This document shows, one piece after another, positions 9,788 through 63,071 of a DNA stretch of 64,000 nt (its first letter is position 1; every line of letters starts with the position of its first letter). The notes under the pieces were generated by a model, which saw only the letters and a list, made by a program, of their open reading frames with translations, did not search any database and was not told the origin of the DNA. A program made the position numbers and the translations under genes. The stretch covers positions 62,001 through 126,000 of the forward strand of contig NZ_JAUYQD010000044.1 of NCBI RefSeq assembly GCF_030697375.1, written 5' to 3'. This DNA is from Rhodoferax sp. (GTDB lineage: Bacteria; Pseudomonadota; Gammaproteobacteria; Burkholderiales; Burkholderiaceae_C).

Positions 9788-10432
9788 ATGCAAAACACGC
9801 CACCCCCACCCCGCCCCTCATTTTCCATGCTTGACCGCTTCGCCCTCGCCCTCCTGCGCGCACCCATGACAGCCACCGCCCAGGTACTGGTGCGGGCAGG
9901 CGTGGGCGCCAACACTGTCACCCTGGTGGCTTTTGCACTGGGCATGCTTGCTGCAATTTTGATAGCTGGCCACGCTTATCTGGCGGGTGCTACAGCCCTG
10001 ATTGCCTCAAGAATCTGCGATGGGCTGGACGGTGCCGTGGCCCGGCAAACCCAGCCCACCGACGCCGGGGGCTTTCTGGACATTGCGCTGGACTTCCTGT
10101 TTTACGCCAGCATTCCGCTGGCCTTTGCCTTGGCCGACCCGGCGCGCAACGCGCTGGCCGGCGCCCTGCTGCTGGCCGCCTTCATTGGCACGGGCACCAG
10201 CTGTCTGGCCTTTGCCGCCCTGGCGGCCAAGCGGGGCCTGACCAACCTGGCCTACCCCGACAAGTCCTTCTATTTTTTGGGCGGACTGACCGAGGCGACA
10301 GAAACCATCGCCTTTTTTACCGCCATGTGCCTGTGGCCGCAGCACTTTGCGGCCCTGGCCACCGTGTTCGCCGGCCTGTGCGCCATCACCACCGCCACCC
10401 GTTTGTGGTGGGGTTGGAAGGCTTTTTCGTGA
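9788..10432 (+). CDS. CDP-alcohol phosphatidyltransferase family membrane protein
   Basis: A 214-residue integral membrane enzyme of the family that moves a phosphatidyl or phospho-alcohol group from a CDP-linked donor to an alcohol. The full signature is present at about residues 79-101: D-x2-DG-x2-AR-x8-G-x3-D-x3-D, read as DGLDGAVAR followed by GFLDIALD. About five or six hydrophobic helices surround it. The acceptor alcohol cannot be told from sequence. The hydrophobic segment just before the active site (about 54-74) coincides with a copy of repeat I. Its TGA overlaps the GTG start of the next gene, so the two are coupled. An operon with the VTT-reductase fusion, DUF3047 and NDH-2-like genes is likely. 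Confidence 0.85.
   Translation: MQNTPPPPRPSFSMLDRFALALLRAPMTATAQVLVRAGVGANTVTLVAFALGMLAAILIAGHAYLAGATALIASRICDGLDGAVARQTQPTDAGGFLDIALDFLFYASIPLAFALADPARNALAGALLLAAFIGTGTSCLAFAALAAKRGLTNLAYPDKSFYFLGGLTEATETIAFFTAMCLWPQHFAALATVFAGLCAITTATRLWWGWKAFS
9947..10008 (+). repeat. Repeat I copy 1 (inside phosphatidyltransferase gene)
   Basis: A diverged copy: a TAGCTGGCCACGC core, then a TGGCGGGTGCTACAGCC end, matching the order of blocks in the better copies at 12694 and 50112. It is in frame and reads AAILIAGHAYLAGATALIA, a membrane helix next to the catalytic signature. Confidence 0.6.
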
Positions 10433-12636
10433 AACGCTCCCAAATATGGCTGGCCACCGGCTTTGCCGGCACGGTGCTGCTGTTTTTTGCGCTGGACCTG
10501 GGGCGTTTTTTGCGCCTGGACTACCTCCAGCGCAGCCAGGCCCAGTTGGCCCAGTGGTACGCCCAGTCGCCCTGGAGCCTGCGGGGGGCGTATTTTGCGG
10601 TGTATGTGGCGGTAGCCTCCCTGTCCCTGCCCGGAGCCGCCATCTTGACGCTGGCCGGCGGCGGGGTGTTTGGCCTGGGCTGGGGGCTGCTGCTGGTGTC
10701 GTTTGCCTCCAGCATAGGCGCGACCTTGTCCTTTTGGATGGCGCGTTTTGTCCTGCGCAGCAGCGTGCAGGCCCGCTTTGGCCCGCGCCTGGCCGACATC
10801 AACCGGGGTGTGGAGCGCGAAGGCGCGCTGTACCTGTTCAGCCTGCGGCTGGTGCCCCTGGTGCCGTTTTTTGTGATCAACCTGGCCATGGGCCTGACTG
10901 CCATGCGCACGCGCACCTTTTACGGGGTCAGCCAGCTGGGCATGCTGGCCGGCACGGTGGTGTATGTGAACGCGGGCACCCAGCTGGCCCACATCCACAG
11001 CCTGAAGGACGTGCTCAGCCCCGGGCTGCTGGGCTCTCTGGTGCTGCTGGGCATTTTTCCCCTGCTGGCGCGCAAGGTCCTGGACGCGGTCCAAAAGCGC
11101 CGGGTCTACGCCCGCTGGCGCGCCGTCAAACCCAAGACCTTTGACCGCAACCTGGTCGTCATAGGCGGGGGCGCGGGCGGGCTGGTGTCGGCCTACATCG
11201 CCGCCGTGGTCAAGGCCAAAGTCACGCTGGTGGAGGCGCACAAAATGGGCGGCGACTGCCTGAACTACGGCTGCGTGCCCAGCAAAGCGCTGATCCAAAG
11301 CGCCAAACTGGCGCACCAGATGCGGCTTGCGGAGCGCTATGGTTTCAATAGCTGCTCACACAATGAGGACGGGGGCCAGCGCCCTATTTCCTTCAAAAGA
11401 ATAATGCAACGCGTGCAGGCGGTGGTAACCGCCATTGCGCCGCACGACAGCGTGGAGCGCTACACCGCCCTGGGCGTGGAGGTGCTGGCCGGCTACGCCA
11501 CCATCGTCAACCCCTGGACCGTGGAGATCGCGCTCACGGGCGGCGGCACGCAGCGGCTCACCACCCGCAGCATCGTGATCGCCGCCGGTGCCCGGCCCCT
11601 GGTGCCGCCCCTGCCCGGGCTGGAGGAGGTGGGTTATGTGACCAGCGACACCCTGTGGGACCGCTTTGCCCAACTCGACGAGATCCCGAAGCGCCTGGTG
11701 GTGCTGGGCGGCGGCCCCATTGGCTGCGAGCTGGCGCAAAGTTTTGCCCGCCTGGGCGCGCAGGTGACGCAGGTGGAAATGGCGCCGCGCCTCCTGCTGC
11801 GCGAAGACGCGGAGGTCTCGGCCCTGGCCTGCGCCGCCTTGCAGGCCGACGGCGTGCGTGTGCTCACCAGCCACCAGGCGCTGCGCTGCGAGAAGTCCAG
11901 CGGCGCGCCAGGCGAGGTCAAGACCCTGGTCGTAGGCCACGCCGGCGCCGAGCTACGCATCGAATTCGACCAGTTGCTGTGCGCCGTGGGCCGTGCGGCC
12001 CGGCTCAGCGGCTACGGGCTGGAGGAGCTGGGCATCCCCACCGACAAGACGGTGCAGACCAATGAGTACCTGCAAACCATCTACCCCAACATCTATGCGG
12101 CGGGCGACGTGGCCGGGCCCTTCCAGTTCACCCACACGGCCGCGCACCAGGCCTGGTACGCGGCGGTGAACGCGCTGTTTGGCGACTTCAAGTCCTTCAA
12201 GGCGGACTACTCCGTCGTCCCCTGGGCCACCTTCATCGACCCCGAGGTGGCGCGCGTGGGCCTGAACGAACAGGAAGCGCGGGAACAAGGCGTGGCCTTT
12301 GAGGTGACGAAGTACCACATCGACGAGCTGGACCGCCAGATCTGCGACGCGGGAGCCGACCACCCCAGCCACGGCTTTGTGAAGGTGCTGACCGTGCCCG
12401 GCAAGGACCGCATTTTGGGCGTCACCATCGTCGGCACCCACGCCGCCGACCTGCTGGCCGAATACGTGCTGGCCATGCGCCATGGCCTGGGGCTGAACCA
12501 AATTCTGGGCACCATCCACACCTACCCCACCCTCTCGGAGGCCAACAAATACGCCGCCGGTGCATGGAAACGCGCCCACCAGCCCCTGGCCCTGCTGGAA
12601 TGGGTACGCCGCTTCCACGACTGGCGCCGGGGCTGA
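10429..12636 (+). CDS. VTT (TVP38/TMEM64-like) membrane domain fused to FAD disulfide oxidoreductase
   Basis: A 735-residue fusion starting at a GTG that overlaps the previous stop. Residues about 1-225 are a TVP38/TMEM64 (SNARE-associated/DedA-like) membrane domain with several helices and LSLPGAAILTLAGG and FGLGWG patterns. Residues about 235-735 are a class I pyridine-nucleotide disulfide oxidoreductase: FAD-binding VVIGGGAGGLVSA, redox pair in GGDCLNYGCVPSK (Cys277, Cys282), an NAD(P) site VVLGGGPIGCELA, AAGDVAG, and a C-terminal IHTYPTLSE with the His/Glu dyad. Similar two-part proteins are known in other bacteria, but the substrate is not. Mercuric reductase is unlikely because no HMA domain or C-terminal Cys pair is present. 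A repeat I copy forms residues about 303-323. Confidence 0.85.
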   Translation: MKRSQIWLATGFAGTVLLFFALDLGRFLRLDYLQRSQAQLAQWYAQSPWSLRGAYFAVYVAVASLSLPGAAILTLAGGGVFGLGWGLLLVSFASSIGATLSFWMARFVLRSSVQARFGPRLADINRGVEREGALYLFSLRLVPLVPFFVINLAMGLTAMRTRTFYGVSQLGMLAGTVVYVNAGTQLAHIHSLKDVLSPGLLGSLVLLGIFPLLARKVLDAVQKRRVYARWRAVKPKTFDRNLVVIGGGAGGLVSAYIAAVVKAKVTLVEAHKMGGDCLNYGCVPSKALIQSAKLAHQMRLAERYGFNSCSHNEDGGQRPISFKRIMQRVQAVVTAIAPHDSVERYTALGVEVLAGYATIVNPWTVEIALTGGGTQRLTTRSIVIAAGARPLVPPLPGLEEVGYVTSDTLWDRFAQLDEIPKRLVVLGGGPIGCELAQSFARLGAQVTQVEMAPRLLLREDAEVSALACAALQADGVRVLTSHQALRCEKSSGAPGEVKTLVVGHAGAELRIEFDQLLCAVGRAARLSGYGLEELGIPTDKTVQTNEYLQTIYPNIYAAGDVAGPFQFTHTAAHQAWYAAVNALFGDFKSFKADYSVVPWATFIDPEVARVGLNEQEAREQGVAFEVTKYHIDELDRQICDAGADHPSHGFVKVLTVPGKDRILGVTIVGTHAADLLAEYVLAMRHGLGLNQILGTIHTYPTLSEANKYAAGAWKRAHQPLALLEWVRRFHDWRRG
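11336..11398 (+). repeat. Repeat I copy 2 (inside VTT-reductase fusion)
   Basis: It reads TTTCAATAGCTGCTC, then GACGGGGGCCAGCGCCCTATTTC, a diverged version of the repeat. It is in frame and encodes about 20 residues (FNSCSHNEDGGQRPIS) in the flavoprotein part, shortly after the redox-active cysteines. Confidence 0.65.
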
Positions 12637-12639
12637 GCC

Positions 12640-13467
12640 ATGGCCCTCTTCCCACCCAGGCAGGCGCATGGAGAGCCCCCCAAAAACACCACTTTTGCTA
12701 TGCTTTTGATAGCTGCTTGCGCACTATTAACGGGGGCTACAGCCCTATTTCTCTTAAGCTCCCCCTCGGTTTCCAGGGCGCAAGAGCGGCCCGCCACGGG
12801 GGAGATGCTGGCGCCATTTTCCAGCGCACCGCTGGGCGCGCCCCCGCCGCCCTGGCGTGCGGTGGGCCTGCCCGCCCGCCACCATGTGCCACTGACGTCC
12901 ATGGACGTGGTGGCACTGGACGGGCCAGCGGTGTTGCGCCTGCGCACCGACCGGTCCTACGGCACCCTCAGCCATGCGCTGCCCGCAGCCACCCGCGCCG
13001 GCACCCTGCGCTGGCGCTGGCGGCTGGACCAGCCCCTGCCCGACGCCAACCTGCTGCGCAAGGACGGCGACGACGCACCGCTCAAGGTTTGCGCCCTGTT
13101 TGACCTGCCGCTGGACAAAATCCCCTTTGTCGAGCGCAGCCTGCTGCGCCTGGCCCGCGGCGTCAGCGGCGAATACCTGCCCGGGGCCACCCTGTGCTAC
13201 GTGTGGGACCACAGCCTGCCCCTAGGCACCGCGCTGGCCAACGTCTACAGCCGTCGGCTGCGATGGCTGGTGCTGGATGCGGGCCCCGCCCAGCTGGGCC
13301 AATGGGTGGCCCACCGCCGGGACCTGCAGGCCGACTTCTTGCGCAGCTTTGGCGCGGAGAGCGACACCGTGCCACCGCTGCTGGCCATCGTGGTGGGGGC
13401 CGATGCCGACAACACCGGCGGCACCAGCCTGGGCTATGTGGGCGATCTGTCGCTCATGAAACAATAG
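12640..13467 (+). CDS. DUF3047 family exported protein
   Basis: A 275-residue protein of the DUF3047 family, whose function is not known. The N-terminus is a signal peptide: a short leader, hydrophobic MLLIAACALLTGATALFLL (about 21-39) and a likely signal peptidase I site after SRA. That hydrophobic core is encoded by a copy of repeat I. The mature part has family-like features LRWRWRLDQPLP, a central DDAPLKVCALFDLP, YLPGATLCYVW and NTGGTSLGYVGDLSL near the end. The gene starts 3 nt after the VTT-reductase stop and ends 5 nt before the next start, so it belongs to the same operon. A periplasmic location is inferred from the signal peptide. Confidence 0.82.
   Translation: MALFPPRQAHGEPPKNTTFAMLLIAACALLTGATALFLLSSPSVSRAQERPATGEMLAPFSSAPLGAPPPPWRAVGLPARHHVPLTSMDVVALDGPAVLRLRTDRSYGTLSHALPAATRAGTLRWRWRLDQPLPDANLLRKDGDDAPLKVCALFDLPLDKIPFVERSLLRLARGVSGEYLPGATLCYVWDHSLPLGTALANVYSRRLRWLVLDAGPAQLGQWVAHRRDLQADFLRSFGAESDTVPPLLAIVVGADADNTGGTSLGYVGDLSLMKQ
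12694..12752 (+). repeat. Repeat I copy 3 (encodes signal peptide core of DUF3047 protein)
   Basis: A well-preserved copy: TTTGCTATG...TTTGATAGCTGCTTGCGCACTA, then ACGGGGGCTACAGCCCTATTTC. In frame it encodes LLIAACALLTGATALF, nearly the same peptide as in gspD at 50112. Confidence 0.9.
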
Positions 13468-13472
13468 GTGGC

Positions 13473-22602: not shown

Positions 22603-22657
22603 CACTATCAATTTAATAGCTAGCCACGCATATTCCTTGCGGGCTTGCGGTTTATTT
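22603..22657 (+). repeat. Repeat I copy 4 (degenerate, groES-groEL gap)
   Basis: It reads CTATCAATTTAATAGCTAGCCACGCATATTCC, then GCGGGCTTGCGG, keeping the 5' half of the repeat but a poor 3' half. It is non-coding and sits between groES and groEL. Confidence 0.5.
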
Positions 22658-22671
22658 CACTTCAATTTTAG

Positions 22672-24515: not shown

Positions 24516-24574
24516 TTTTGCTATTGTTTAGATAGCTGCTTACGCAGTATCTACGGGGGCTACAGCCATATTCG
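24516..24574 (+). repeat. Repeat I copy 5 (intergenic)
   Basis: TTTTGCTATTGTTTAGATAG, then CTGCTTACGCAGTATC, then TACGGGGGCTACAGCCATATTC. It is a full-length copy outside genes, directly after the groEL terminator. Confidence 0.85.
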
Positions 24575-29393: not shown

Positions 29394-31055
29394 TTACGTG
29401 CTGGTCCGCAAGCGCGCCAACAGCCCTGCTGTCGAACCGTCCAGCCCCGTGGTGTCACCACTGGCTAGACGCGGCTCAATATCCTTGGCCAGCACCTTGC
29501 CCAGCTCTACGCCCCACTGGTCAAAGCTGTTGATGCCCCACAGCGAGCCGCTCACAAACACGCGGTGTTCCTGCAGGGCGATCAAGGCGCCCAGGGATGC
29601 CGGAGTCAGGTCGTCCAGCAGCAAAAAGGTGCTGGGCCGGTTGCCGGGAAAGTGCTTGTGCCCGCCTCCATCGGGATTTTTGCCCCCACGCACGCTCACT
29701 GCGTGTGGCGCACTGCCCCCCAAGGGGGCTGCGTCGCTTTGGGGCGGCCCGGCAGCGTCGCGCTTGCCCACCATCAGGGCCTGCGCCTGCGCCAGCACAT
29801 TGGCCAACAGCATAGGGTGGTGGCCTGCCAGGGCGTGGCGCGGCGTTTTGACGGCCACAAACTCCACCGGCACCACATCCGTGCCCTGGTGCAGCATCTG
29901 GAAATAGGCATGCTGGCCGTTGGTGCCCGGCTCGCCCCACAGCACGGGGGAGGTGCCAAAGGGTAGCGCCTCGCCCGAGGCATCCACGCGCTTGCCGTTG
30001 CTCTCCATCTCCAGCTGCTGCAAATAGGCGGGCCAACGGCGCAGGGCGCTGTGGTAGGGCGCAATGCTGCGGCTGGTGAAACCGTGGAAGTTGCGGTACC
30101 AGACGTCCAGCAGCCCCAGGCGCACCGGCAGATTGCTCTCCAGCGGGGCGGTGCGGAAGTGTTCGTCCATGGCGTGGGCGCCGGCCAAAAACTCCCGGAA
30201 CCCCTCCGCACCAATGGCAACCGCCAACGGCAGCCCAATGGCCGACCACAGGGAATAACGCCCGCCCACCCAGTCCCAAAACCCAAAGGTGGTGGTGATG
30301 CCAAAGACATTGGCCGCCGCCACATTGGTGGTCAGTGCGGCAAAGTGGCGCGCAATGTCCGTCCCACCTTGCGACTCAAACCAATGTTTGGCGGACGCCG
30401 CATTGGTCATGGTCTCGATGGTGGTGAAGGTCTTGCTGGCAATCAGAAACACCGTGCTCTCAGGCCGCAGCTGTGGCAGTTTGGCGGCCAGCTCGTGCCC
30501 GTCCACATTGCTCACAAAGTGCAGGCGTTTGCCCGTGGTGGCAAAAGCATCCAGCGCCAGCACCGCCATCTGCGGCCCCAGGTCGGAGCCGCCAATGCCG
30601 ATGTTCACCACGTCGGTAATAGCGCTGTCCGCCCGCAGCGTCTCGGCATAGGCCAGCATGGCATCCAGGGTGGCGTGTACCTTGGCCTGTTCTATTGCTA
30701 TGAATTCAGGAGCTTCTTGCGCACTGTTGACGGGGGCTAGAGCCGGATTTCGCAACAAAACATGCCACACCTCACGCTGTTCGGTGGCGTTGATCTTGGC
30801 TCCGGCAAACATGGCGTCGCGGTGCGCTTCCACCCCACTCTGGCGCGCAAGGTCCAGCAACAAAGTTTCCGTCGCGGCATCGATCCGGTTTTTGGACAGA
30901 TCGGCAAACACATACGGCGCTTCCTGGCTGAACCGCGCAAAACGCGCCGGGTCTTGCGCAAAGGCCTCGCGGGTATCGAAGCGCTGGCCGGTGGCCTGGT
31001 AGGCGGTTTGCAATTGCGCCCAGGCGGGCGTGCTGTCACATCGGGTGCGGGTCAT
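29394..31055 (-). CDS. pgi: Glucose-6-phosphate isomerase carrying two repeat insertions
   Basis: A 553-residue PGI, interconverting glucose-6-P and fructose-6-P. Hallmarks: NIGIGGSDLGPQM, the VSNVDGHELA region, IASKTFTTIET, GGRYSLWSAIGL, SNGKRVD, GTNGQHAYFQMLHQG and FDQWGVELGK. Two stretches look inserted: residues about 102-122 come from repeat I (reverse orientation), and about 433-458 come from repeat II (a Gly/Pro/Ala-rich loop before FPGNRPS). The frame is intact and the catalytic motifs are untouched, so the enzyme is probably active. The start at 31055 has a GAGG site and is 17 nt behind tal; a longer in-frame start lies inside tal. Confidence 0.95.
   Translation of the reverse strand: MTRTRCDSTPAWAQLQTAYQATGQRFDTREAFAQDPARFARFSQEAPYVFADLSKNRIDAATETLLLDLARQSGVEAHRDAMFAGAKINATEQREVWHVLLRNPALAPVNSAQEAPEFIAIEQAKVHATLDAMLAYAETLRADSAITDVVNIGIGGSDLGPQMAVLALDAFATTGKRLHFVSNVDGHELAAKLPQLRPESTVFLIASKTFTTIETMTNAASAKHWFESQGGTDIARHFAALTTNVAAANVFGITTTFGFWDWVGGRYSLWSAIGLPLAVAIGAEGFREFLAGAHAMDEHFRTAPLESNLPVRLGLLDVWYRNFHGFTSRSIAPYHSALRRWPAYLQQLEMESNGKRVDASGEALPFGTSPVLWGEPGTNGQHAYFQMLHQGTDVVPVEFVAVKTPRHALAGHHPMLLANVLAQAQALMVGKRDAAGPPQSDAAPLGGSAPHAVSVRGGKNPDGGGHKHFPGNRPSTFLLLDDLTPASLGALIALQEHRVFVSGSLWGINSFDQWGVELGKVLAKDIEPRLASGDTTGLDGSTAGLLARLRTST
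29681..29761 (+). repeat. Repeat II copy 1 (inside pgi)
   Basis: It opens TGCCCCCACG, then CTGCCCCCCAAGGGGGC, then arm GCGTCGCT, the constant 15-nt loop TTGGGGCGGCCCGGC (29739-29753) and arm AGCGTCGC. The arms pair at 7 of 8 positions. It is read in the opposite direction by pgi without a stop. Confidence 0.88.
30691..30752 (+). repeat. Repeat I copy 6 (inside pgi, antisense to the gene)
   Basis: TATTGCTATG...AGGAGCTTCTTGCGCACTG, then GACGGGGGCTAGAGCCGGATTTCG. Read by pgi on the other strand it encodes about 20 residues around APVNSAQEAPEFIAIE. Confidence 0.85.
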
Positions 31056-31072
31056 GGGGTGCCTCGCAGTGA

Positions 31073-32020
31073 CTAAGCCGCCAACATCAGTTGTTCCAGC
31101 TTGACCGCGTCCACGCAGAACGCGCGTATGCCTTCGGCCAGCTTCTCGGTGGCCATGGCGTCTTCGTTCAGCGCCAGGCGGAATCCCGCTTCGTCGAAGC
31201 TCACATGCTCCACAGCGCTGTCTTTCGCCGTCGAAACGTCCAAGGCGCGTGCCAGCGGCGCGTCGGTGGCCGCCAATATGGCCAACAGGTCGGGGCTGAT
31301 GGTCAGCAAATCGCAGCCCGCCAGGGCGGTGATCTGCCCCACGTTGCGGAAACTCGCGCCCATCACCTCGGTGGCAATGCCGAACTTCTTGTAGTAGTTG
31401 TAGATGTGTTTGACGGATTGCACACCGGGGTCGTTGGCCTCGGCCTTGTCCGCTTCCACCCACTGGGCACCTGCCGACTTTTTGTACCAGTCGTAAATGC
31501 GGCCGACAAAGGGCGAGATCAGTTGCACCTTGGCCTGTCCGCAGGCCACCGCCTGGCAGAAGGAAAACAGCAATGTCAGGTTGGTGTGGATGCCCTTGCG
31601 CTCCAGCTGTTCCGCCGCCTGGATGCCCTCCCAGGTGGCGGCCACCTTGATCAGCACACGGTCGATGTGCACACCCTGCGCCTGGTACAGCTCAATCAGC
31701 CGCTCACCCCGCGCCACGGTGGCACTGGTGTCAAAACTCAGGCGGGCGTCCACTTCGGTGGACACACGCCCCGGGATGATGCTCAAAATCTCGCAGCCGA
31801 AACGCACCAGCAGGCGGTCCATCACCTCGTCCAGCGCACGGCCCCGAAACTGCTGCACTGTGTCGTTCAACAAAGGTGCATAGTCGGGCTTTTGCACCGC
31901 CTTGAGAATCAGCGAGGGATTGGTCGTGGCATCGGTGGGCTGAAAAACACCAAGCTGTTTGAAGTCGCCGGTGTCAGCCACCACGGTGGTGAATTGTTTG
32001 AGTGCGTCGAGTTGGTTCAT
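31073..32020 (-). CDS. tal: Transaldolase
   Basis: A 315-residue class I transaldolase of the TalB type, normal length. It moves a dihydroxyacetone unit between sugar phosphates in the non-oxidative pentose phosphate pathway. The Schiff-base lysine lies in [13 protein letters not shown] (about Lys132). Other blocks are [47 protein letters not shown] and [11 protein letters not shown]. It is the first gene of a tal-pgi operon and is divergent from zwf over a 91-nt gap that holds a candidate operator. Confidence 0.97.
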
Positions 32021-36706: not shown

Positions 36707-36910
36707 GTGTGTGTCCTGAATAGTCATCATTGTCGTCATCGTGTTTTAAGAACGATTTCGTCTCCTCAGCCACCCTTTCAGGAAGCTGACACTATTGGAC
36801 CAAAAGTCACAAACATTACAAAGAACTTTCTATTATCAATATCAATATTAATGTTGTACGGCACTGAAATGTTGCACCCATCCCACACAGCTTTGGAATG
36901 CCCCCATTGA

Positions 36911-36948
36911 AAAAGCCCCACGGCATTTCTGCCGTGGGGCTTTGGTTT
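36911..36948 (-). terminator. Terminator of porin copy 2
   Basis: AAAAGCCCCACGGC (36911-36924), loop ATTTCT, GCCGTGGGGC (36931-36940) and T-rich flank. On the minus strand the stem is followed by CTTTTT, right after the porin stop. Confidence 0.92.
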
Positions 36949-36980
36949 TAAATACGCAGCTAGCTTACGCTAGCCAGTAT

Positions 36981-40993: not shown

Positions 40994-41053
40994 ATATTTG
41001 CTATCTATTTAATAGCTGTCTACGCACTATTTACGGGGGCTGGAGGCCGTTTT
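40994..41053 (+). repeat. Repeat I copy 7 (supplies gspC 3' end)
   Basis: ATTTGCTATCTATTTAATAG, then CTGTCTACGCACTATT, then TACGGGGGCTGGAGGCCGTTTT. On the minus strand its start encodes the last seven residues of the GspC-like protein and the TAA stop (41031-41033). Confidence 0.85.
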
Positions 41054-41549
41054 TACCATTCAATAGAGACGGCAGCGGCATCTCCAGCACCAGTTCGGCG
41101 CCACCTGTTGCGGGCGGCTGCCCGGTGGCGTCCAAGTGCACTAGCACAGCGCGCCGGGGCTGCACCGATCGCAACACCCATTCATCCCCCACCCGGGAGC
41201 CCACCACATAAGGCTTGGGCGGCTTGCCGTCGACCGCAATGAGTGAAGCGCCGTGCTGGCTTTGCCCCGCGATCACACCGGTCAACACAAAGCGGCTGGA
41301 CGCCAGCACCGGACTGGCCACAGAGACGCTGGCGGAGGCGGCGCCCCCCAAAGCGCGCACCACAGCGGCAGTGTCTGTCAGCACAGGGGGCTGCAGATCT
41401 ACCGCTGGCAAGGCGGCACTTCCTGCGGGGGCCGACAGGTGCAGCGCCCAAAACACAGCGCTGCCAGCGACCAGCGCCGCCAGGACGAAGGTGGAAAGGC
41501 GTGGCAACCAGACAGTTGGGGGAGAGGCATGCATACGGCGCATTATCAT
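41031..41549 (-). CDS. gspC: Type II secretion protein C (short form)
   Basis: A protein of about 172 residues: a short cytoplasmic part, one membrane helix (LSTFVLAALVAGSAVFWALHL, about 17-37), a Pro/Ala linker and a periplasmic homology-region domain (SRFVLTGVIAGQSQHGASLIAVDGKPPKPYVVGSRVGDEWVLRSVQPRRAVL), as in GspC/XcpP, which links the inner-membrane platform to the secretin. No PDZ domain or coiled coil follows. The final residues and stop come from repeat I, which may mark a lost C-terminal part. Start codons at 41549, 41543 and 41534 are all possible. It is divergent from gspG. Confidence 0.8.
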   Translation of the reverse strand: MIMRRMHASPPTVWLPRLSTFVLAALVAGSAVFWALHLSAPAGSAALPAVDLQPPVLTDTAAVVRALGGAASASVSVASPVLASSRFVLTGVIAGQSQHGASLIAVDGKPPKPYVVGSRVGDEWVLRSVQPRRAVLVHLDATGQPPATGGAELVLEMPLPSLLNGKNGLQPP

Positions 41550-41601
41550 GGAAGGTCGTACTATCTTGCACCCTCCCATTACAGGCTCCGCCTTAATCTC
41601 C

Positions 41602-42042
41602 ATGCATCACACCCGCCGCCCGCTACGCCACCGTTTTGGTTCTGGTTTTACCCTGATAGAACTCATGGTGGTACTGGTCATCATTGGGGTGCTGGCCGCT
41701 CTGATCGTGCCCAATGTGCTGGACCGCGCCGATGACGCCCGCGTCACCGCCGCCAAAACGGACATTGCCAACCTGACCCAGGCGCTCAAACTCTACAAGC
41801 TGGACAACCAACGCTACCCCAATGGCGAGCAGGGCTTGCAGGCGCTGGTGGCCAAACCCAGCAGCGGGCCCGCCCCTACCAACTGGCGCCCCTACCTGGA
41901 CAAGCTGCCCAACGACCCCTGGGCCCGCCCCTACCTGTACATGAACCCCGGCGTCAAGGGCGAAATTGACGTGCTGTCCTTCGGTGCCGATGGACAGGCC
42001 GGAGGTGAAGGCAAGAATGCGGATATTGGCAGCTGGCAGTGA
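41602..42042 (+). CDS. gspG: Major pseudopilin GspG
   Basis: A 146-residue pseudopilin. The prepilin site GFTLIELMVVLVIIGVLAALIVPN has Gly before the cleavage and Glu5 after it. The C-terminal part has the GspG hallmarks YKLDNQRYPNGEQGLQALV, WRPYLDKLPNDPWARPY and DVLSFGADGQAGGEGKNADIGSW (calcium site). It forms the main shaft of the secretion pseudopilus. It is the first gene of the GHIJK run, and its stop overlaps the GTG proposed for gspH. Confidence 0.97.
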   Translation: MHHTRRPLRHRFGSGFTLIELMVVLVIIGVLAALIVPNVLDRADDARVTAAKTDIANLTQALKLYKLDNQRYPNGEQGLQALVAKPSSGPAPTNWRPYLDKLPNDPWARPYLYMNPGVKGEIDVLSFGADGQAGGEGKNADIGSWQ

Positions 42043-42536
42043 AATGGCCCCCACGCTTATTCGCTTCGCGTAATGCGCTGCCCCCCGAGGGGGCTAATTT
42101 CCCTTGGGGCGGCCCGGCGGGAAATTGCCGTTTCCCCGGCGGGTTCACCCTGCTGGAGTTGCTGCTGGTCATTGCCATTGTGGCCACGGCCTCGGTGGGG
42201 GTGACACTGGCCATGCGCGACTCGGGGCAAGCCCAGCTGGAGACCGAGGCACAGGCCCTGGCGGCCGTGCTGGAGTCGGCCCGTGCACAGTCCCGCGCCA
42301 GTGGCTTGCCGGTGCGATGGCGTGCCACGGCCGCCGGATTTGCCATCGATGACAAACAGCAGGGCTGGACGTCCAGTGGCATCGCCGCCAGCTCCGAGCA
42401 GCCCCTGCTGCTGGGCCCCGAACCCATCATTGCGCCGCAAAGCGTGCGGCTGTGGCTTATAGAACAACCCAGTAAAAGCGTGCGCGTCACCACCGATGGG
42501 GTGCGCCCCTTTGCCGTGCAAAACGTCAACCCATGA
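42039..42536 (+). CDS. gspH: Minor pseudopilin GspH with repeat-encoded leader
   Basis: A 165-residue minor pseudopilin. The prepilin site is GGFTLLELLLVIAIVATASVGVTLAM, with a globular domain after it (LALEGGQ-like blocks are replaced by EAQALAAVLESARAQSRASGLPVRW). The leader before the cleavage site is about 34 residues, far longer than the usual 6-15, and is encoded almost wholly by repeat II (MKWPPRLFASRNALPPEG...). The only in-frame start found is the GTG at 42039, overlapping the gspG stop. It overlaps gspI by 4 nt. Confidence 0.88.
   Translation: MKWPPRLFASRNALPPEGANFPWGGPAGNCRFPGGFTLLELLLVIAIVATASVGVTLAMRDSGQAQLETEAQALAAVLESARAQSRASGLPVRWRATAAGFAIDDKQQGWTSSGIAASSEQPLLLGPEPIIAPQSVRLWLIEQPSKSVRVTTDGVRPFAVQNVNP
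42047..42126 (+). repeat. Repeat II copy 3 (encodes GspH leader)
   Basis: CCCCCACGCTTATTCGCTTC, then CTGCCCCCCGAGGGGGC, then arm AATTTCCC (42096-42103), loop TTGGGGCGGCCCGGC (42104-42118) and arm GGGAAATT (42119-42126). The arms are perfectly complementary over 8 bp. Confidence 0.92.
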
Positions 42537-50064: not shown

Positions 50065-52203
50065 ATGCAACTACGAACACCCCCTTCTGCCAAGCCGATG
50101 CAACGCACTGCTTTCGCTACTTTTTTAATAGCTGCTTGCGCACTATTGACGGGGGCTACAGCCATATTTCCCTTCAACGCACGGGCGCAAACCGCGCTCA
50201 GCGCCCCCAAGCGCGGCGAACCCATTACGCTGAACTTCAACAGCGCCGAGATCGAAGCCGTGGCCCGTACCATGGCCACCGTGACCGGGCGCAATGTGGT
50301 GGTGGACCCGCGCGTCAAAGGCACCATCACCCTCACCACCGACACGCCCGTCACTCCGGCCGTGGCCTACAACCAGTTTCTGGCTACGTTGCGCATGCAG
50401 GGTTACACCGTAGTACAGACGGAAGGCCTGGACAAGGTGGTGCCCGAGGCCGATGCCAAGCTGCAAGGCGGCTCGGTCATGGTGCTGGATGCCGACAGTC
50501 CCGGCAAGGCCGGTGCGGCAGGCAACCAGTTGATGACGCAGATCATTCGCCTGCAATACGAAAGCGCCAACAACCTGGTGGCCGTGCTGCGCCCGCTGAT
50601 CAGCCCCAACAACCCGATCAACGTCAACCCCGGCAACAATTCGCTGGTGATTACCGACTACGCCGACAACCTGCGCCGGCTGGCGCGCATCGTGGCCGCA
50701 CTGGACATTCCCAATGCCACCAATGTGGAAATCATTGCGCTCCAAAACGCCATTGCGTCCGATTTGGCACCCTTGGTCTTGCGGCTGCTGGAAAGCTCGG
50801 GCGGTGCGGCCCCCTCAGGCCAGGGCGACAGCAGCTTCAAAACCACCATCGTGGCCGAACCGCGCTCCAACACCCTGATTCTGCGGGCCGCCAACCAGGC
50901 CCGGCTGGCCCTGGCCAAGTCGCTGATCGACAAGCTGGACCAGCCCTCGGGCAATACCAGCAACGGGGCGGCCGGCAATATTTACGTGGTGTACCTGAAA
51001 AACGCCAACGCCACCCAGTTGGCCACCACCTTGCGCGCTGCGCTCAGCGGTGAGGCGCGTGCCACGCCTTCGGCGGGCGGTACAAGCGCCAGCACACCGG
51101 GCGCAGCGGTCGCCAGCGCGGCGGCCAACAGCGGGTCCTCCACCGGTGGCCAGATCCAGGCGGACCCCACCACCAATGCCCTGATCATCACCGCCAGCGA
51201 ACCCCAGTACCGCCAGTTACGCGCCGTCATCGACAAGCTTGACGCCCGCCGCGCCCAGGTGTTTGTGGAAAGCCTGATTGCCGAGGTCAGCGCCGACAAG
51301 GCGGCCGAATTCGGCATCCAGTGGCAAGGCGCCCTGGGCAAGGCGGGAGACGCCACCATCGGGCTGCTGGGCACCAACTTTGGCGACAAAGGCAAAAACA
51401 TCATCACGCTGGCCACGCAGGGTGCCACCGGCACCGTGGCACCCGGGCGGGGTATCAACCTGGGCGCTGCCACCCAGACCAATGGCGTCTATATGCTGGG
51501 CTTTTTGGCCCGCTTTTTGGAGACCAGCGGCAGCGGCAACGTGTTGTCCACGCCCAATTTGCTAACCCTGGACAACGAGGAGGCCAAAATCACCATCGGC
51601 CAAAACGTCCCTTTTGTCACCGGCCAGTTCACCAACACCGGGTCTTCCGGCGGTTCGGTCAATCCGTTCCAGACCGTGGAGCGCAAAGACGTGGGCCTGA
51701 CGCTGAAGGTCAAGCCGCAGATCAGTGAAAACGGCACGGTCAAACTGACGGTGTTTCAAGAAATCTCCAGCGTGCTGGCCTCCACCGCCAACGCCGTCAA
51801 CGGCCCCACCACCAGCAAGCGCACCTTCGAAACCAATGTGCTGGTGGACGACGGGGCGGTGGTGGTGCTGGGCGGCCTGTTGTCGGACGAATACGCGGGC
51901 GACCAGGAAAAAGTGCCCGGCCTGGGCGACCTGCCCTTCTTTGGCAACTTGTTCAAGAGCGAAGCCCGCTCCCGCAAGAAAACCAATTTGATGGTGTTTT
52001 TGCGCCCGGTGGTGGTGCGTGATGCCGCGGCCTCCGACCGCCTGTCGCTGGACCGCTACGAACAGATGCGCTCCGGCCAAAAAGAGGCCCAGCCCGAACC
52101 CAGCAGCCTGGTGCCCATCAACGAAGCACCGATGATGTTGCAATTCCAACGTTCGCCACCGGTGATCACCCCCTTGATGGCACCCAGCACCGCGACCCCC
52201 TGA
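50065..52203 (+). CDS. gspD: Type II secretion secretin GspD with repeat-encoded signal peptide
   Basis: A 712-residue outer-membrane secretin. The signal peptide core (about residues 16-35, FATFLIAACALLTGATAIF) is encoded by repeat I; cleavage probably follows ARA (near 41). Mature GspD starts with the N0 domain (ITLNFNSAEIEAVARTMATVTGRNVVVDPRVKG), then N1-N3 repeats (YESANNLVAVLRPLI, EIIALQNAIASDLAPLV, YLKNANATQLATTLRAAL), a Gly/Ala/Ser-rich linker and the secretin domain (VPFVTGQ, VGLTLKVKPQI, VVLGGLLSDE, VPGLGDLPFFGNLFKS). The gene follows gspN by 6 nt and precedes gspE by 4 nt. Confidence 0.97.
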   Translation: MQLRTPPSAKPMQRTAFATFLIAACALLTGATAIFPFNARAQTALSAPKRGEPITLNFNSAEIEAVARTMATVTGRNVVVDPRVKGTITLTTDTPVTPAVAYNQFLATLRMQGYTVVQTEGLDKVVPEADAKLQGGSVMVLDADSPGKAGAAGNQLMTQIIRLQYESANNLVAVLRPLISPNNPINVNPGNNSLVITDYADNLRRLARIVAALDIPNATNVEIIALQNAIASDLAPLVLRLLESSGGAAPSGQGDSSFKTTIVAEPRSNTLILRAANQARLALAKSLIDKLDQPSGNTSNGAAGNIYVVYLKNANATQLATTLRAALSGEARATPSAGGTSASTPGAAVASAAANSGSSTGGQIQADPTTNALIITASEPQYRQLRAVIDKLDARRAQVFVESLIAEVSADKAAEFGIQWQGALGKAGDATIGLLGTNFGDKGKNIITLATQGATGTVAPGRGINLGAATQTNGVYMLGFLARFLETSGSGNVLSTPNLLTLDNEEAKITIGQNVPFVTGQFTNTGSSGGSVNPFQTVERKDVGLTLKVKPQISENGTVKLTVFQEISSVLASTANAVNGPTTSKRTFETNVLVDDGAVVVLGGLLSDEYAGDQEKVPGLGDLPFFGNLFKSEARSRKKTNLMVFLRPVVVRDAAASDRLSLDRYEQMRSGQKEAQPEPSSLVPINEAPMMLQFQRSPPVITPLMAPSTATP
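50112..50170 (+). repeat. Repeat I copy 8 (encodes GspD signal peptide core)
   Basis: TTTCGCTACTTTTTTAATAG, then CTGCTTGCGCACTATTG, then ACGGGGGCTACAGCCATATTTC. It is almost identical to the copy at 12694 in the central block and is in the same reading frame. Confidence 0.92.
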
Positions 52204-55498: not shown

Positions 55499-56425
55499 TT
55501 ACAGACCTGCGTTTTTCAATCGGTTGGCCTGGGCACGGAACACGGTGACCGGGTTGGTCTCAAACAGATTGACGATGCCGATGGTCTGGTTGACCACGTC
55601 CATGTGGTTCATCGCATAGTCCGCACGAATCACTTTGCCCAAACGCTGGCTGCAGGTGGACACCAGGCCATCGTTTGGGGCACCGCCAAAGGCCAGCGAG
55701 GTCAGCGCCATGAAGGGGTCCAAAATATCCAGCACATTGGTGTAGGGCTTGGCCCCGCCCCATGAGTAATAGGCCACACCCCGCGCCGTATAAGCGCCTT
55801 CACCGCAGGCCGTCGTGGGCACACCCTCAGGATGCGCCAGATTGAACTTGGCAGTGCCTGCTGTGCTCAGGGAGGTAGCTGCCGCCAATGCATTTTGTGA
55901 CAAACCCGATCCGCCGGACAGAAAGTTAACAATGGAACTGAAGCCGTTGGCCACCGTGACCAGCGCCGCGTTCGAGACGGTTCCCGGAGGCGCCACATGC
56001 AAGACCACATCGGCCACAGCCGAGCCCTTGTTCACGCCATCGACCGAGGTGACCGATGCGATCAAATCGGGGCGCACCGACGCGACATACCGGGAGGTGG
56101 GGCTGCCTTGGCTGTGCCCCATCAGATTCACTTTGGACGCACCACTGGCCGCCAGAATTTGCTTCACCTGGGTCAGCAGCTGTTCACCACGCACTTCATG
56201 GCTGTTGGCGGCGGACACCTGCACCAGATACACCCGGGCACCGTCGGCACGCAATGCCGAAGGAATGCCGTAGAAATACTCCACCGGACCGATGTTGTCG
56301 AATCCGAAAATACCGTGCACCAGCACGATGGGGTACTTGGTTTGGGTGTAAGTCCCCGCAGTCGCGGGAATAGCGGCCAAGGCCAACACGCAGGCGCTCA
56401 GCCCAATCATCAACGTTTTTTTCAA
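55499..56425 (-). CDS. Secreted triacylglycerol lipase, tandem copy 1 (GHSQG)
   Basis: A 308-residue family I lipase. The signal peptide ends near ATAG (about 24). The mature part starts [20 protein letters not shown] (oxyanion region HGIFG). The nucleophile Ser105 is in GHSQG, the Asp is in NDGLVSTC and the His is in NHMDVVN. Cysteines in TTACGEGAY and GLVSTCS should form the family disulfide. The start is a TTG at 56425, six bases after GGAG and aligned with the ATG starts of the two sister genes. It ends 7 nt before the foldase gene. A type II secretion substrate by family knowledge. Confidence 0.93.
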   Translation of the reverse strand: MKKTLMIGLSACVLALAAIPATAGTYTQTKYPIVLVHGIFGFDNIGPVEYFYGIPSALRADGARVYLVQVSAANSHEVRGEQLLTQVKQILAASGASKVNLMGHSQGSPTSRYVASVRPDLIASVTSVDGVNKGSAVADVVLHVAPPGTVSNAALVTVANGFSSIVNFLSGGSGLSQNALAAATSLSTAGTAKFNLAHPEGVPTTACGEGAYTARGVAYYSWGGAKPYTNVLDILDPFMALTSLAFGGAPNDGLVSTCSQRLGKVIRADYAMNHMDVVNQTIGIVNLFETNPVTVFRAQANRLKNAGL

Positions 56426-56564
56426 AATAAGCTCCAGAAAAACCGCAAGGTCTAAAAGATTGAAAGGAATCCGTCCGAATAGCTGGTGCGACCTCTGGGG
56501 TGGGGGCGGTGTCGCTTGACGACCCAAGTCCCGCGGATTGTGTCTGCGGACAGAGGCCATTTGT

Positions 56565-56576
56565 GTACAGTTGTAC
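56565..56576. repeat. Conserved 12-bp palindrome behind lipase copy 2
   Basis: GTACAGTTGTAC, 75 nt downstream of the lipase 2 stop. The same 12 bases occur 72 nt downstream of lipase 3 at 57813-57824. They mark the duplicated 3' flank and may form part of a terminator or binding site. Confidence 0.5.
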
Positions 56577-56651
56577 CGCTTACAAAAGTGTATTTTTATG
56601 TCTCACCGTGGGCCACTGGGAGAAACCCGGTGGCGGGCCAAACCGCCGCCT

Positions 56652-57575
<924 letters not shown>

Positions 57576-57812
57576 TCAAAAGTCTCCAGTGGAACCGCGA
57601 GGTTCAGAGGGTTGAAAAGGATTCGTCCGTATCGCCAAGGCGGCACCGTCGGACAGATTCATTGTGCGAATCCGTGCTGCCGCCGTTGTTGCCAATTCTC
57701 AAACGTGAAGTCGATTTGGGCTGGCAACGGCAGGCTTGAGGCGCAGGGGCAAAACGCTGGCGCGTAGCGACCCACGGCCCGCAGCTTTCGTCAGTGGGCA
57801 CCGGCATATTGT

Positions 57813-57850
57813 GTACAGTTGTACCCGTTGAAAAACCGCGTTTTTCAACG
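57813..57850. repeat. Palindrome pair behind lipase copy 3
   Basis: GTACAGTTGTAC (57813-57824) is followed by a perfect inverted repeat CGTTGAAAAA / TTTTTCAACG (57826-57835, 57841-57850) with a 5-nt loop. In the minus direction it lies about 47-84 nt after the lipase 3 stop and could end its transcript. The rest of the 321-nt gap 57576-57896 shows no gene. Confidence 0.55.
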
Positions 57851-57896
57851 CACTCGGGGTTCCACCGAGAGGCTCCCGGTGGCGGACGCCCAGCCC

Positions 57897-58862
<966 letters not shown>

Positions 58863-59051
58863 TCATCAGTCCGAATAACCAGTGCGACCTCTTTGGTGGG
58901 GGCGGTGTCGCTGGATGACCCGCTACCGGCACGAGGTATCGGCCGGCTGGGGTCAAAATAGAACGGTTGTGCTATTTTCGAAATTGTAATTTTTAGTTCG
59001 TTTTGTGTCATCGGGGAAAACCCGAGCCCACCGCCCCGCTACCATTGCACC

Positions 59052-60290
59052 ATGCCCGCCTATTCGTATGAAGCCCTTGACGCCCTCGGAAAAACCCGCA
59101 AGGGTGTGCTGGAAGCGGACACCGCCCGGGCCGCACGCGGCCTGCTGCGCGCCCAGGCGCTGGTCCCCCTGAATGTGGAAGCCCTGTCCGGCGGCGGCAC
59201 CAGCGCAGCCGCTTCTGGCGCAGCGGGATCGGGACAGGCACTGTGGAGCCGCCGGGTGTTCAGCGACACCGAGTTGGCGGTGTGGACCCGCCAAATCGCC
59301 GGGCTGGTGAGTTGCGGTTTGCCGCTGGAGCGCGCTTTAAGCTCGCTCTCGGAAGAAGCCCCCAACGACAAACAACGCAACCTGGTGGCCACCTTGCGGG
59401 CCGAGGTCAACGCCGGCTCCACCTTTGCCAAGGCGCTGGGCCAGCACCCCAAAGAGTTCTCCGCCATCTTCGTGGCCGTGATTGGTGCGGGCGAACACAG
59501 CGGCCAACTCGGGCTGGTGCTGGAGCGTCTGGCGGATGAGTTGGAAGAACAGCAAAACCTGGCGGCCAAACTGCTGGGGGCCGCGTTGTACCCCGCCATC
59601 GTGAGTGTGGTGGCCCTGGCCATCGTGCTGTTTTTGCTGGCCTATGTGGTGCCACAGGTGGCCAGCGTGTTTGCCGGCTCCAAACGCGCCCTGCCCCTGC
59701 TCACGCAGATGATGCTGGCGGTCAGTGGCCTGGTACGCAACTACGGATGGGTGCTGCTGATTGCTATTGTTTTAGGAGCTGCTTGCGCACGCTTGGCATG
59801 GGCTAGAGCCTCTTTTCGTGAAAATTTTGATGCCGCCTGGCTGCGTCTGCCGGTGCTGGGCCGGCTGGCGCGCGGCTACAACGCTGCCCGCTTTGCCAGC
59901 ACCCTGGCCATGCTGGGCGCGGCAGGGGTGCCCATTTTGAAGGCCCTGCAAGCCGCTGCCGACACCCTGTCCAACCGCGCCATGCGCGCCGACGCCTTGC
60001 AGGCCCTGGCCTTGGTACGCGAAGGTGCGCCCCTGGCCAGCGCCTTGGCGCACAAGCAGCGCTTTCCCCCCTTGCTGGGTATGTTTGCGCGCCTGGGTGA
60101 GCAGACCGGACAGCTTCCCGTGATGCTGGACCGCGCCGCCAACCAGTTGCGCGCCGAAGTGCAGCGCCGCGCCATGCAACTGGCCACCCTGCTGGAGCCG
60201 CTGCTGATTGTGGCCATGGGCATGGTGGTGATGCTGATTGTGCTGGCCGTGCTGCTGCCCATCATCCAGCTCAACCAACTCGTGAAGTAA
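59052..60290 (+). CDS. gspF: Type II secretion inner-membrane protein GspF, separated from gspE
   Basis: A 412-residue polytopic platform protein. It has two homologous GspF domains: WTRQIAGLVSCGLPLERALSSLSEEA (about 80-105) and FASTLAMLGAAGVPILKALQAAADTL (about 280-305), each ended by membrane helices; the N-terminus PAYSYEALDALGKTRKGVLEAD is typical. The segment before the second domain (about 235-256, LLIAIVLGAACARLAWARASF) coincides with repeat I and overlaps a membrane helix. The gene lies 5.4 kb from gspE, across the lipase block. Confidence 0.96.
   Translation: MPAYSYEALDALGKTRKGVLEADTARAARGLLRAQALVPLNVEALSGGGTSAAASGAAGSGQALWSRRVFSDTELAVWTRQIAGLVSCGLPLERALSSLSEEAPNDKQRNLVATLRAEVNAGSTFAKALGQHPKEFSAIFVAVIGAGEHSGQLGLVLERLADELEEQQNLAAKLLGAALYPAIVSVVALAIVLFLLAYVVPQVASVFAGSKRALPLLTQMMLAVSGLVRNYGWVLLIAIVLGAACARLAWARASFRENFDAAWLRLPVLGRLARGYNAARFASTLAMLGAAGVPILKALQAAADTLSNRAMRADALQALALVREGAPLASALAHKQRFPPLLGMFARLGEQTGQLPVMLDRAANQLRAEVQRRAMQLATLLEPLLIVAMGMVVMLIVLAVLLPIIQLNQLVK
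59756..59818 (+). repeat. Repeat I copy 9 (inside gspF)
   Basis: ATTGCTATTGTTTTAGGAGC, then TGCTTGCGCACGC, then GGGCTAGAGCCTCTTTTCG. It is in frame with gspF and encodes part of a membrane helix. Confidence 0.82.
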
Positions 60291-60369
60291 TGCCCCCACG
60301 CTCCGCACTTCGTGTCGTCGCTGCCCCCCAAGGGGGCGCATTTCCGCTTGGGGCGGCCCGGCGCGGAAA
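60291..60369 (+). repeat. Repeat II copy 4 (gspF to nucleotidase gap)
   Basis: TGCCCCCACGCTCCGCACTT, then CTGCCCCCCAAGGGGGC, then arm TTTCCGC (60341-60347), loop TTGGGGCGGCCCGGC (60348-60362) and arm GCGGAAA (60363-60369). The arms pair perfectly over 7 bp. Confidence 0.92.
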
Positions 60370-60399
60370 CGGTTGCTCTCACCCGATTAAAGGACCTGT

Positions 60400-61293: not shown

Positions 61294-61301
61294 ACCTCGC
61301 C

Positions 61302-63071
61302 ATGCAAACCACCCAAAAACTCCGCGCCTTTAAAACCTTTGCCGCCCAGGCCTGGGCGCTGTCCAAGCCCTACTTTGCCTCCGAACAAAAGTGGAAGGCC
61401 CGTGGCCTGCTGCTGGCCATCGTGGCCCTGAACCTGGGCCTGGTTTACATGTCGGTGCTGTTCAACGACTGGAACAAGCTGTTTTACGACGCCTTGCAGG
61501 ACAAGAACGCCGCCGTGTTCTGGGAGCAGCTGGGGCGTTTCACCTACCTGGCGTTTGCCTTCATCGTCATCGCGGTCTACAAGTTTTACCTGACGCAGCT
61601 GCTGGAGATGCGCTGGCGCGCCTGGATGACCGGCCACTACCTGCAGCGCTGGCTGGCCAACCACGCGTTTTACCGGCTGGAGCTGGCGCGTTTTGCCCAG
61701 CAGCCCAACGCCGACCACAACCCGGACAACCCGGACCAGCGGATTCAGGAGGACATCAACCAGTTCACCACCTACACCGTCTCGCTGACCATGGGCCTGC
61801 TCAACGCGGTGGTCACGCTGGCGAGTTTTGTCGGCATCCTGTGGGGGCTGTCGGGCGGTTTTGCGTTCACGTTTTCGGGTACGCAATACAACATTCCGGG
61901 CTTCATGGTGTGGATGGCGGTGCTGTACTGCGCAGCGGGCAGCATCCTCACCCACTACATAGGCAGACCCCAGATTAAACTGAATTTCGAGCAGCAGCGC
62001 CTGGAGGCCGATTTTCGCCACCACATGGTGCGGGTGCGCGAATACAGCGAATCCATCGCGCTGGACCGGGGGGAAGCGGTGGAGCGTCAACAATTGGACC
62101 TGCGTTTTGGCCACGTGCTGGGCAACTACCTGGCGCTCATCAAGGCGCAGAAGAACCTGATCTGGTTCACCAGCTTTTTTGGCCAGGCCGCCGTGGTCTT
62201 CCCTTTTGTGGTGGCAGCGCCGCGTTTTTTCAGCGGTGCCATCCAACTGGGCGAACTCATGCAGATCTCCAGCGCCTTTGGCCAGGTGCAGGGGGCACTG
62301 AGCTGGTTTGTGGACAGCTACAGCAGCCTGGCAAGCTGGCGCGCCACCACCGACCGCTTGACCAGTTTTGAAGCATCATTTAGGGCTCTAGCCAGCGTAG
62401 AACCTGCGCAAGCAGCTATCGATTCAATAGCACTTGACAGCCCGGACTTGACGGTGGCCCTGCCCAATGGCGCGGTCTTGCTGGCCCATGCCAAGCTGCA
62501 CGCCGCCCCCGGCGACAGCGTGCTGCTGCAAGGGCCCTCGGGCAGCGGCAAATCCACCCTGTTTCGCACCTTTGCCGGCATCTGGCCCTTTTCACACGGT
62601 GCCGTGGGCCGCCCTGCCCAGGCCATGTTCATCCCGCAACGGCCCTACTTCCCGAACGGCCTGCTGCGCGACGCGCTGGCCTATCCCGAAAGCCCCACCC
62701 TGTACACCGACGCGCAGCTGCGCCAGGCCCTGGTGGATGCGCTGCTGCCCGGCCTGGTCGATCAGCTGGACCTGGCCGATGCCTGGAGCCAGAAACTCTC
62801 GGGGGGCGAGCAGCAGCGCTTGGCCATTGCCCGCGTCTTGCTGAAAAAGCCCCAGTGGGTGTTTGCCGACGAGGCCACCAGCGCACTCGACGAAGCCAGC
62901 GAAACCTTGGTGTACCAACGGCTTCTGGCCCTTGTCCACACTGCGCAAGGCGCTCTTATTTCGATAGCACACCGACCCAGTGTGGCGGCGTTTCACGACC
63001 ACCGCTGGGTGTTGACGAAAGCGCCCGAGGGCGCTCCCGCGCTTTACACGCTGGAAGAAAAGCGCGCGTAA
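61302..63071 (+). CDS. SbmA/YddA-type ABC transporter (membrane and ATPase domains fused)
   Basis: A 589-residue half-transporter. The membrane part (about 1-345; [38 protein letters not shown]) is of the ABC_membrane_2 type shared by SbmA/BacA, YddA and peroxisomal ABCD proteins, which move peptides, cobalamin or acyl-CoA. The ATPase part (about 385-589) has Walker [10 protein letters not shown], signature LSGGEQQRL, Walker [14 protein letters not shown] and the H-loop SIAHRP. The linker (about 360-377) is a reversed copy of repeat I. The last 28 nt overlap the end of queC on the other strand. The substrate is unknown. Confidence 0.92.
62380..62433 (-). repeat. Repeat I copy 10 (linker of ABC transporter, reverse orientation)
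   Basis: On the minus strand TGCTATTGAATCGATAGCTG, then CTTGCGCAGGTTCTACG, then GGCTAGAGCCCTAAA. The gene reads it as [18 protein letters not shown], joining the membrane and ATPase domains. Confidence 0.8.

Follow-up and report, generated by a model that had tools for sequence, protein, structure and literature searches.

A repeat of about 70 bp in the genome of a Rhodoferax species (assembly GCF_030697375.1, the own genome in what follows) is abundant, occupies fixed positions between species, is constrained at synonymous positions, has changed in concert between lineages and, at several sites, is laid over coding sequence. We tentatively favour the reading that it is a double-stranded recognition motif kept by a trans-acting factor, most likely through biased uptake of self-DNA. 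If a recognition factor does maintain the motif, a family of common environmental bacteria would bear a genome-wide mark, so far undescribed, that takes precedence over synonymous codon choice. The mark would even shape proteins, as at the signal peptide of gspD, where 41 of 81 loci carry it. Sequence-biased uptake, known from two families, would then extend to a third, or else the motif would be a new chromosome-organising site.

Copies in the window and across the genome

The window, i.e. the whole stretch of 64,000 nucleotides that was analysed (contig NZ_JAUYQD010000044.1, positions 62,001 to 126,000), had been predicted to hold ten copies of an interspersed element. A profile derived from copies of this genome recovered all ten (E 1e-7 to 9e-15), and an eleventh, absent from that prediction, was found at 62917-62969 on the minus strand (E 9e-8). 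The 16-base core, with up to three mismatches, gave 9 matches in the window vs 0.90 expected. Based on ORFs and Pfam domains, eight of the eleven copies are inside ORFs, one is at the 3' end of an ORF and two are intergenic, in agreement with the placement first proposed.

Copy 1 (9948-10004, plus strand; profile E 6e-8) is in a CDP-alcohol phosphatidyltransferase ORF (9788-10432; Pfam CDP-OH_P_transf, 1.5e-8), copy 2 (11336-11390, plus; E 5e-10) in an ORF with VTT and FAD-oxidoreductase Pfam assignments (10327-12636), and copy 3 (12695-12750, plus; E 1e-14) in the N-terminal part of a DUF3047 ORF (12640-13467) whose Pfam domain starts at residue 72. Copy 3 would code for a signal-peptide-like hydrophobic stretch provided that this ORF begins at 12640; our gene caller puts its start at 12862, and the signal peptide is therefore uncertain. 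Copy 4 (22605-22659, plus; E 1e-7) occupies the spacer between groES and groEL (Cpn10 and Cpn60), and copy 5 (24518-24572, plus; E 3e-14) is intergenic, 3' of groEL. Copy 6 (30695-30752, plus; E 1e-13) lies antisense in PGI (ORF 29394-31463, minus; Pfam PGI), and copy 7 (40998-41053, plus; E 6e-14) at the 3' end of a T2SSC-like ORF (41031-41603, minus), the Pfam match of which is below the cut-off. Copy 8 (50116-50170, plus; E 9e-15) forms the hydrophobic core of the signal peptide encoded by gspD (50065-50180), and copy 9 (59761-59818, plus; E 4e-11) coincides with the central hydrophobic segment of gspF. The last two copies are antisense in a single ABC-transporter gene identified with Pfam, copy 10 (62376-62432, minus; E 3e-13) in the linker between the membrane and ATPase domains and copy 11 in the ATPase domain.

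That the host genes are unrelated, that copies occur in both orientations and that the reading frames stay open was borne out. A sample of 800 kb of the own genome was drawn from contigs C13 (320 of 349 kb), C78 (260 of 310 kb) and C31 (220 of 309 kb). The sample contains 95 copies at E<0.01, i.e. approximately 1 per 8.4 kb, with 53 on the plus and 42 on the minus strand. None were found in the reversed sequence, and copies are thus more numerous than chance. If the rest of the genome is alike, about 690 copies would be present in its 5.78 Mb. Over the whole genome, a 36-base pattern with at most three mismatches yielded 86 matches (reversed control, 0), and the profile search yielded at least 150 matches, the weakest of those at E 1.3e-11.

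The conserved stretch of about 70 bp has sharp edges on either side, AT-rich wings and a GC-rich core, and its GC content is 46% vs 61% in the surroundings. The profile spans 59-68 positions and holds approximately 56 bits of information (0.946 x 59). Spacing is random (CV 0.96 vs 0.97 for random positions), the smallest distance in the sample is 240 bp, and there are no tandem arrays; we looked for even spacing along the chromosome in the sample and saw none. None of 85 left half-sites lay isolated outside elements. With the lowest threshold, the right half gave 429 matches outside elements vs 353 in the reversed control, which does not constitute a signal.

By place, the 95 copies comprise 37 wholly within genes (21 sense, 16 antisense), 11 across a gene end and 47 intergenic. 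Genes make up 88% of the sequence, and copies are thus depleted in them (binomial p 1e-29), as judged with a purpose-written gene caller that missed the CDP-alcohol ORF and made some starts too short. The proposed reading-frame compatibility was upheld in part. The frame is indeed restricted, with one codon phase in 19 of the 21 sense and 13 of the 16 antisense copies, but both other sense frames contain stops, and this bias is therefore expected from stops alone. In the preferred sense frame the consensus reads as a hydrophobic stretch, e.g. FAI.LIAACA..TGA. One copy of the own genome (G000, contig C47, 107432-107494) lies inside its comEC match at 107009-107815.

Shared sites and the question of insertion

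Mobility was originally expected to show as gain or loss at orthologous sites, and such events proved rare. In L273, whose syntenic blocks are 84.5-91.3% identical to the own sequence, five of five copies are at the same sites, with conservation scarcely above that of their flanks (0.84-0.95 vs 0.66-0.93). In comparison with genome G007, whose flanks are 71-83% identical, positions could be assigned to 21 of 36 own copies; at 18 of these 21, the same interval of G007 contains a copy in matching orientation. Reverse mapping placed 20 of 42 G007 copies; 17 of these are present in the own genome, although one of the 17 reaches no better than E 0.08. The distance between the flanks agrees within 5 nt in seven shared cases; it is 86/85 nt at copy 1, 78/78 at copy 2 and 79/79 at copy 6. 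Copy 4, between groES and groEL, is also common to both genomes.

Codon usage at gspD illustrates the synonymous constraint. Of 81 loci, 41 have the motif precisely at the signal peptide, always in a single frame. When loci were chosen by peptide alone, 47 of 81 qualified, and Ile is encoded by ATA in 46 of these 47, vs 67 of 2867 Ile codons (2.3%) elsewhere in gspD. Similarly, Phe is TTT in 43 of 44 cases.

The idea that the repeat inserts into genes without breaking them, as in Rickettsia, found no support where it could be tested best: in alanine racemase, gspF and the ABC-transporter ATPase domain (ABC site 2). At all three, alignment of the host proteins with orthologues revealed the same residues at the site, which is the outcome that contradicts insertion. 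In alanine racemase (copy on C78), the five solved racemases shown align ungapped through the motif segment. The same is true of 30 of 30 relatives, 12 of which have a recognisable motif. The second Ile of the KIIA sequence is encoded by ATA in 13 of 14 element-rich and in none of 13 element-poor genomes (Fisher 7e-7). For gspF, 59 of 61 rows are ungapped and 14 of 61 match the motif at E<0.01; intermediates are present, and they may represent decay as well as growth. At ABC site 2, 23 of 25 rows are ungapped and 3 of 25 match. Element-poor relatives encode the same protein segment with other codons in all three genes. Judging from these alignments, in the genes examined most closely the motif seems to have been laid over existing coding sequence, not inserted. 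Repeats that occur in genes are not necessarily insertions, and a DNA motif can be mistaken for a mobile element or for protein conservation.

Length does differ at other sites. All 11 PGI rows that match the motif have 5 extra residues, as do 2 of the 18 that do not match; of those 18, 15 are shorter by 5 residues and one by 13. Two further genes are approximately 10-12 residues longer with the element, and the region of the ABC linker (copy 10) varies in length among relatives. The sites that the own genome and G007 do not share differ by 113-439 nt or more, and four of five are longer by 113-439 nt on the copy-bearing side. Together with the sharp edges of the ~70-bp stretch against unrelated flanks and the small number of partial sites, the length changes at PGI and the two other genes and at these unshared sites could point to a short non-autonomous mobile element (REP-, MITE- or RPE-like) that inserted long ago and is now fixed, the host proteins having been trimmed later. 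We consider this explanation improbable in view of the ungapped alignments of alanine racemase, gspF and ABC site 2. Furthermore, among 1939 flank comparisons, which share sites and hence are not independent, 1006 have no match, and 500 of these differ by 0-9 nt in length. This equal-length class is the commonest without a match in every identity band that has misses. Single positions of the motif also change in concert while local variants persist, as detailed below, which speaks against an old insertion.

The search for a mover gave a similar picture. On contig C65 of the own genome (locus L343), two copies flank a Y1-transposase-like gene, as might be expected of a mobile element. Nevertheless, whether or not the motif is present, 39 of 41 genomes have Y1-transposase PF01797; the element-rich genome G030 lacks it, and copies adjoin Y1-transposase genes in the loci of only 3 of 9 element-rich genomes. 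A RAYT or Y1 transposase was rejected as the mover, since its presence does not track the motif.

Mobile DNA was searched in two ways. By blastn with one consensus, which sees the own dialect only, 2 of 72,556 plasmid records matched; with the same single consensus and thus for the same dialect, no phage record did. Profile searches of two large plasmids gave no strong and one weak partial match in the 257-kb plasmid NC_007901 of Rhodoferax ferrireducens, and one strong and two weak matches in AP026971, a 305-kb Comamonadaceae plasmid. A 32-kb linear Rhodoferax antarcticus record labelled plasmid (NZ_CP019241.1, L442) has 9 matches, a higher density than on the own chromosome. The copies in this one plasmid record would suit a mobile element. 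The record carries pabB and may be chromosomal; otherwise, it argues against exclusion of the motif from plasmids.

Dialects, distribution and presumed recognition of the motif

The consensus differs between lineages. At position 41, 89% of the 94 own copies have G, vs C in 90% of 41 G007 copies, and positions 24 and 35 both change from T in the own genome to C in G007. Fourteen of 18 orthologous pairs have G vs C at position 41. Site-specific variants persist nonetheless, such as CAGGAGC, found in three orthologous pairs. Each of ten other genomes has a consensus of its own; their local densities lie between 1 per 2.0 and 1 per 11.4 kb. Loss was observed as well. L244 is nested in an element-bearing clade (support 100/97), and it has no copies in 14.6 kb; its gspD, gspF and ABC-gene sites are of equal or similar length and lack the motif. 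L221 and G033, which are identical in GspE, were counted twice.

Gene conversion over short tracts, the donor being another copy or a free single-stranded one that can also convert partly similar coding sequence, would fit the concerted change, the writing in place and the missing half-sites. It appears a rather remote candidate, as site variants such as CAGGAGC survive in the three orthologous pairs while position 41 has switched. Orthologous copies of the two genomes are also closer to each other (mean identity 0.715, including pair 124917, which was mispaired with a neighbour's copy and left out of the 18-pair counts) than other cross-genome pairs (0.578).

The prediction that many copies would be found both across the genome and in relatives is consistent with the 95 copies per 800 kb of the own genome and with a family survey at E<=1e-4, in which 103 of 299 genomes and 52 of 126 genera have matches. 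Copies in other genera were sought with a model of the own genome, and distant dialects are therefore under-counted. In a genus survey of 37 genomes including the own, at least 84 matches were recorded in 16, 22 in one and 0-3 in the remaining 20. The profile search found no matches in 24 genomes of other families. Around gspD, the named relatives are mostly Rhodoferax, Polaromonas, Curvibacter and Comamonadaceae. We considered ComEC as a tracker of a role in uptake. A match is present in 291 of the 299 genomes, with or without the motif, which makes it uninformative; G102 and G357 have the motif and no ComEC match.

The cross-genus core is roughly palindromic, with dyad symmetry, and it differs on both sides between genera. 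A consensus that thus holds a stem while changing on both sides might indicate an RNA-level hairpin or terminator. We regard this as very improbable. Base-pair compensation was sought in 241 copies in 12 sets, and the paired fraction equals that of independence at all nine pairs tested. No structural covariation was detected in 88 own copies, for which the consensus fold is empty, and Rfam gave no match at the gathering threshold. Copies are moreover found in either orientation, within and between genes. As pairing within copies is at the level of chance, recognition would be of DNA base by base and not of a fold, which suggests that the motif is recognised as double-stranded DNA.

A proposed trans-acting factor and comparisons with known systems

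The simplest common cause of these features would be a trans-acting factor, probably a protein, that recognises the ~70-bp motif. In natural transformation, fragments with better motif matches would be taken up and recombined more often. The motif would build up by point changes wherever the protein tolerates them, all sites would drift to a new dialect when the preference of the factor shifts, and they would decay in place when the factor is lost. The presence or absence of the motif by genome, its in-place sites, its dialects, its depletion in genes and its near-absence on two large plasmids all speak for a trans-acting factor. Among such factors we favour biased self-DNA uptake because USS and DUS display the same set of behaviours, as far as the consulted parts of PMC7811141 and PMC3630211 describe them.

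Several observations count against uptake. Approximately 56 bits is far above the known uptake motifs and 1 copy per 8.4 kb far below their density. There are no lone left half-sites, whereas a motif written step by step should leave partial ones. Genomes have ComEC with or without the motif, and two motif genomes have no ComEC match. Conservation of single copies does not exceed that of their flanks, some sites have changed length, and NZ_CP019241 has 9 matches in 32 kb.

The main rival is that the motif is a site, or sites, for one or more chromosome-organising or segregation proteins, selected directly site by site with no drive. It explains nearly as much as uptake: the fixed sites, both orientations, the synonymous constraint, the dyad symmetry without folding, dialects that shift with the protein, genome-wide loss and the scarcity on the two large plasmids. 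The random spacing (CV 0.96 vs 0.97) is compatible with it too, although the distribution is not even. We nevertheless judge it unlikely, as selection must hold and switch hundreds of sites, some of them inside enzymes, and as 56 bits is long for one protein.

Genomes that hold 1465 USS cores or 1892 DUS are about 2 Mb in size. In the portions of PMC7811141 and PMC3630211 consulted, these are the numbers per genome; USS and DUS have 9-12 bp cores, with AT-rich flanks for USS, are dispersed on both strands and depleted in coding and acquired DNA, evolve by point mutation and form lineage dialects. On that description, the present motif is like the Haemophilus USS and the Neisseria DUS in its occurrence on both strands, its depletion in genes, its dialects and its GC core, and like USS in its AT-rich flanks. 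It is unlike them in its length of ~70 bp, its 56 bits, its frequency of 1 per 8.4 kb, its few partial sites and its bacterial family. Over-representation on both chromosome strands was found (53 plus, 42 minus, control 0), as were dialects that change in concert (positions 24, 35 and 41, and the ten other genomes). A short motif with many near-matches was not found, given a profile of 59-68 positions and no lone left half-sites. Point changes in place were seen at alanine racemase, gspF and ABC site 2, and length changes at PGI and others. With regard to scarcity in coding and acquired DNA, 37 of 95 copies are in genes vs 88% of the sequence and the two plasmids have 0 and 1 strong match, but the 32-kb record has 9. 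Comamonadaceae and relatives may possess a third, independent self-DNA uptake-signal system in bacteria, and we put this forward as a doubtful possibility. Genes, including the parts that encode secretion signal peptides or segments of enzymes, would be rewritten in place by its dyad-symmetric, ~70-bp composite motif, which would shift in concert between lineages.

The Rickettsia palindromic elements (RPE) are short, palindrome-like sequences found in unrelated genes that they leave open, and they are insertions in the host protein. The motif shares the first features and, unlike RPE, shows no insertion at its best sites: an in-frame insert absent from orthologues was not found at alanine racemase, gspF or ABC site 2, whereas PGI and two other genes differ in length. 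MITEs have terminal inverted repeats and a target-site duplication. REPs, as described in the part of PMC2817692 consulted, have a GTAG tetranucleotide by a stem-like core and are roughly 21-37 nt long. In comparison with this account of REP/BIME and RAYT, the motif is likewise in many copies and has an [AG][TG]AG tetranucleotide beside a stem-like core that resembles GTAG, but it is ~70 bp long, is in genes too, and has a stem that is not maintained within copies. A cognate RAYT present together with the repeats and flanked by them was not found, the transposase being in 39 of 41 genomes and adjoined by copies in the loci of 3 of 9; RAYT does not track the motif.

The nearest named repeat appears to be the BRE of Bordetella, described in the consulted part of PMC3110155 as ~90 bp long, with a mean GC content of 69.0%, often in tandem and in at most 29 copies per genome; it is also reported there from Rhodoferax, Polaromonas, Acidovorax and Delftia, with some copies within coding sequences. 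Both are repeats of betaproteobacteria including Rhodoferax that are partly inside coding sequence. Set against that published description, the motif is distinguished by its length (~70 bp), its GC content (46%), its lack of tandem arrays and its 95 copies in 800 kb.

No earlier description of the motif was found in the open-access literature, which leaves many journals uncovered, and neither was any on DNA uptake sequences together with Comamonadaceae. Papers containing the core string ATAGCTGCT or six short core strings were, among the matches listed, unrelated by title. No function is described in the literature searched, as the original prediction had it.

The window harbours a few other features. 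A second, GC-rich repeat of the CCCC..AAGGGGGC..TTGGGGCGGCCCGGC type was found at 29682-29753, 42047-42118 and 60325-60368, with six copies in the 800 kb and none in the reversed control. In PGI it adds about 25-29 residues in the own genome and G031, and in none of the other relatives compared there. At 35519-37958, on the minus strand, two adjacent porin genes (Porin_4) share a 123-nt stretch repeated at 73%. Lastly, three tandem alpha/beta-hydrolase paralogues, possibly secreted lipases, are encoded on the minus strand between gspE and gspF (55499-58820), where they split the secretion cluster.
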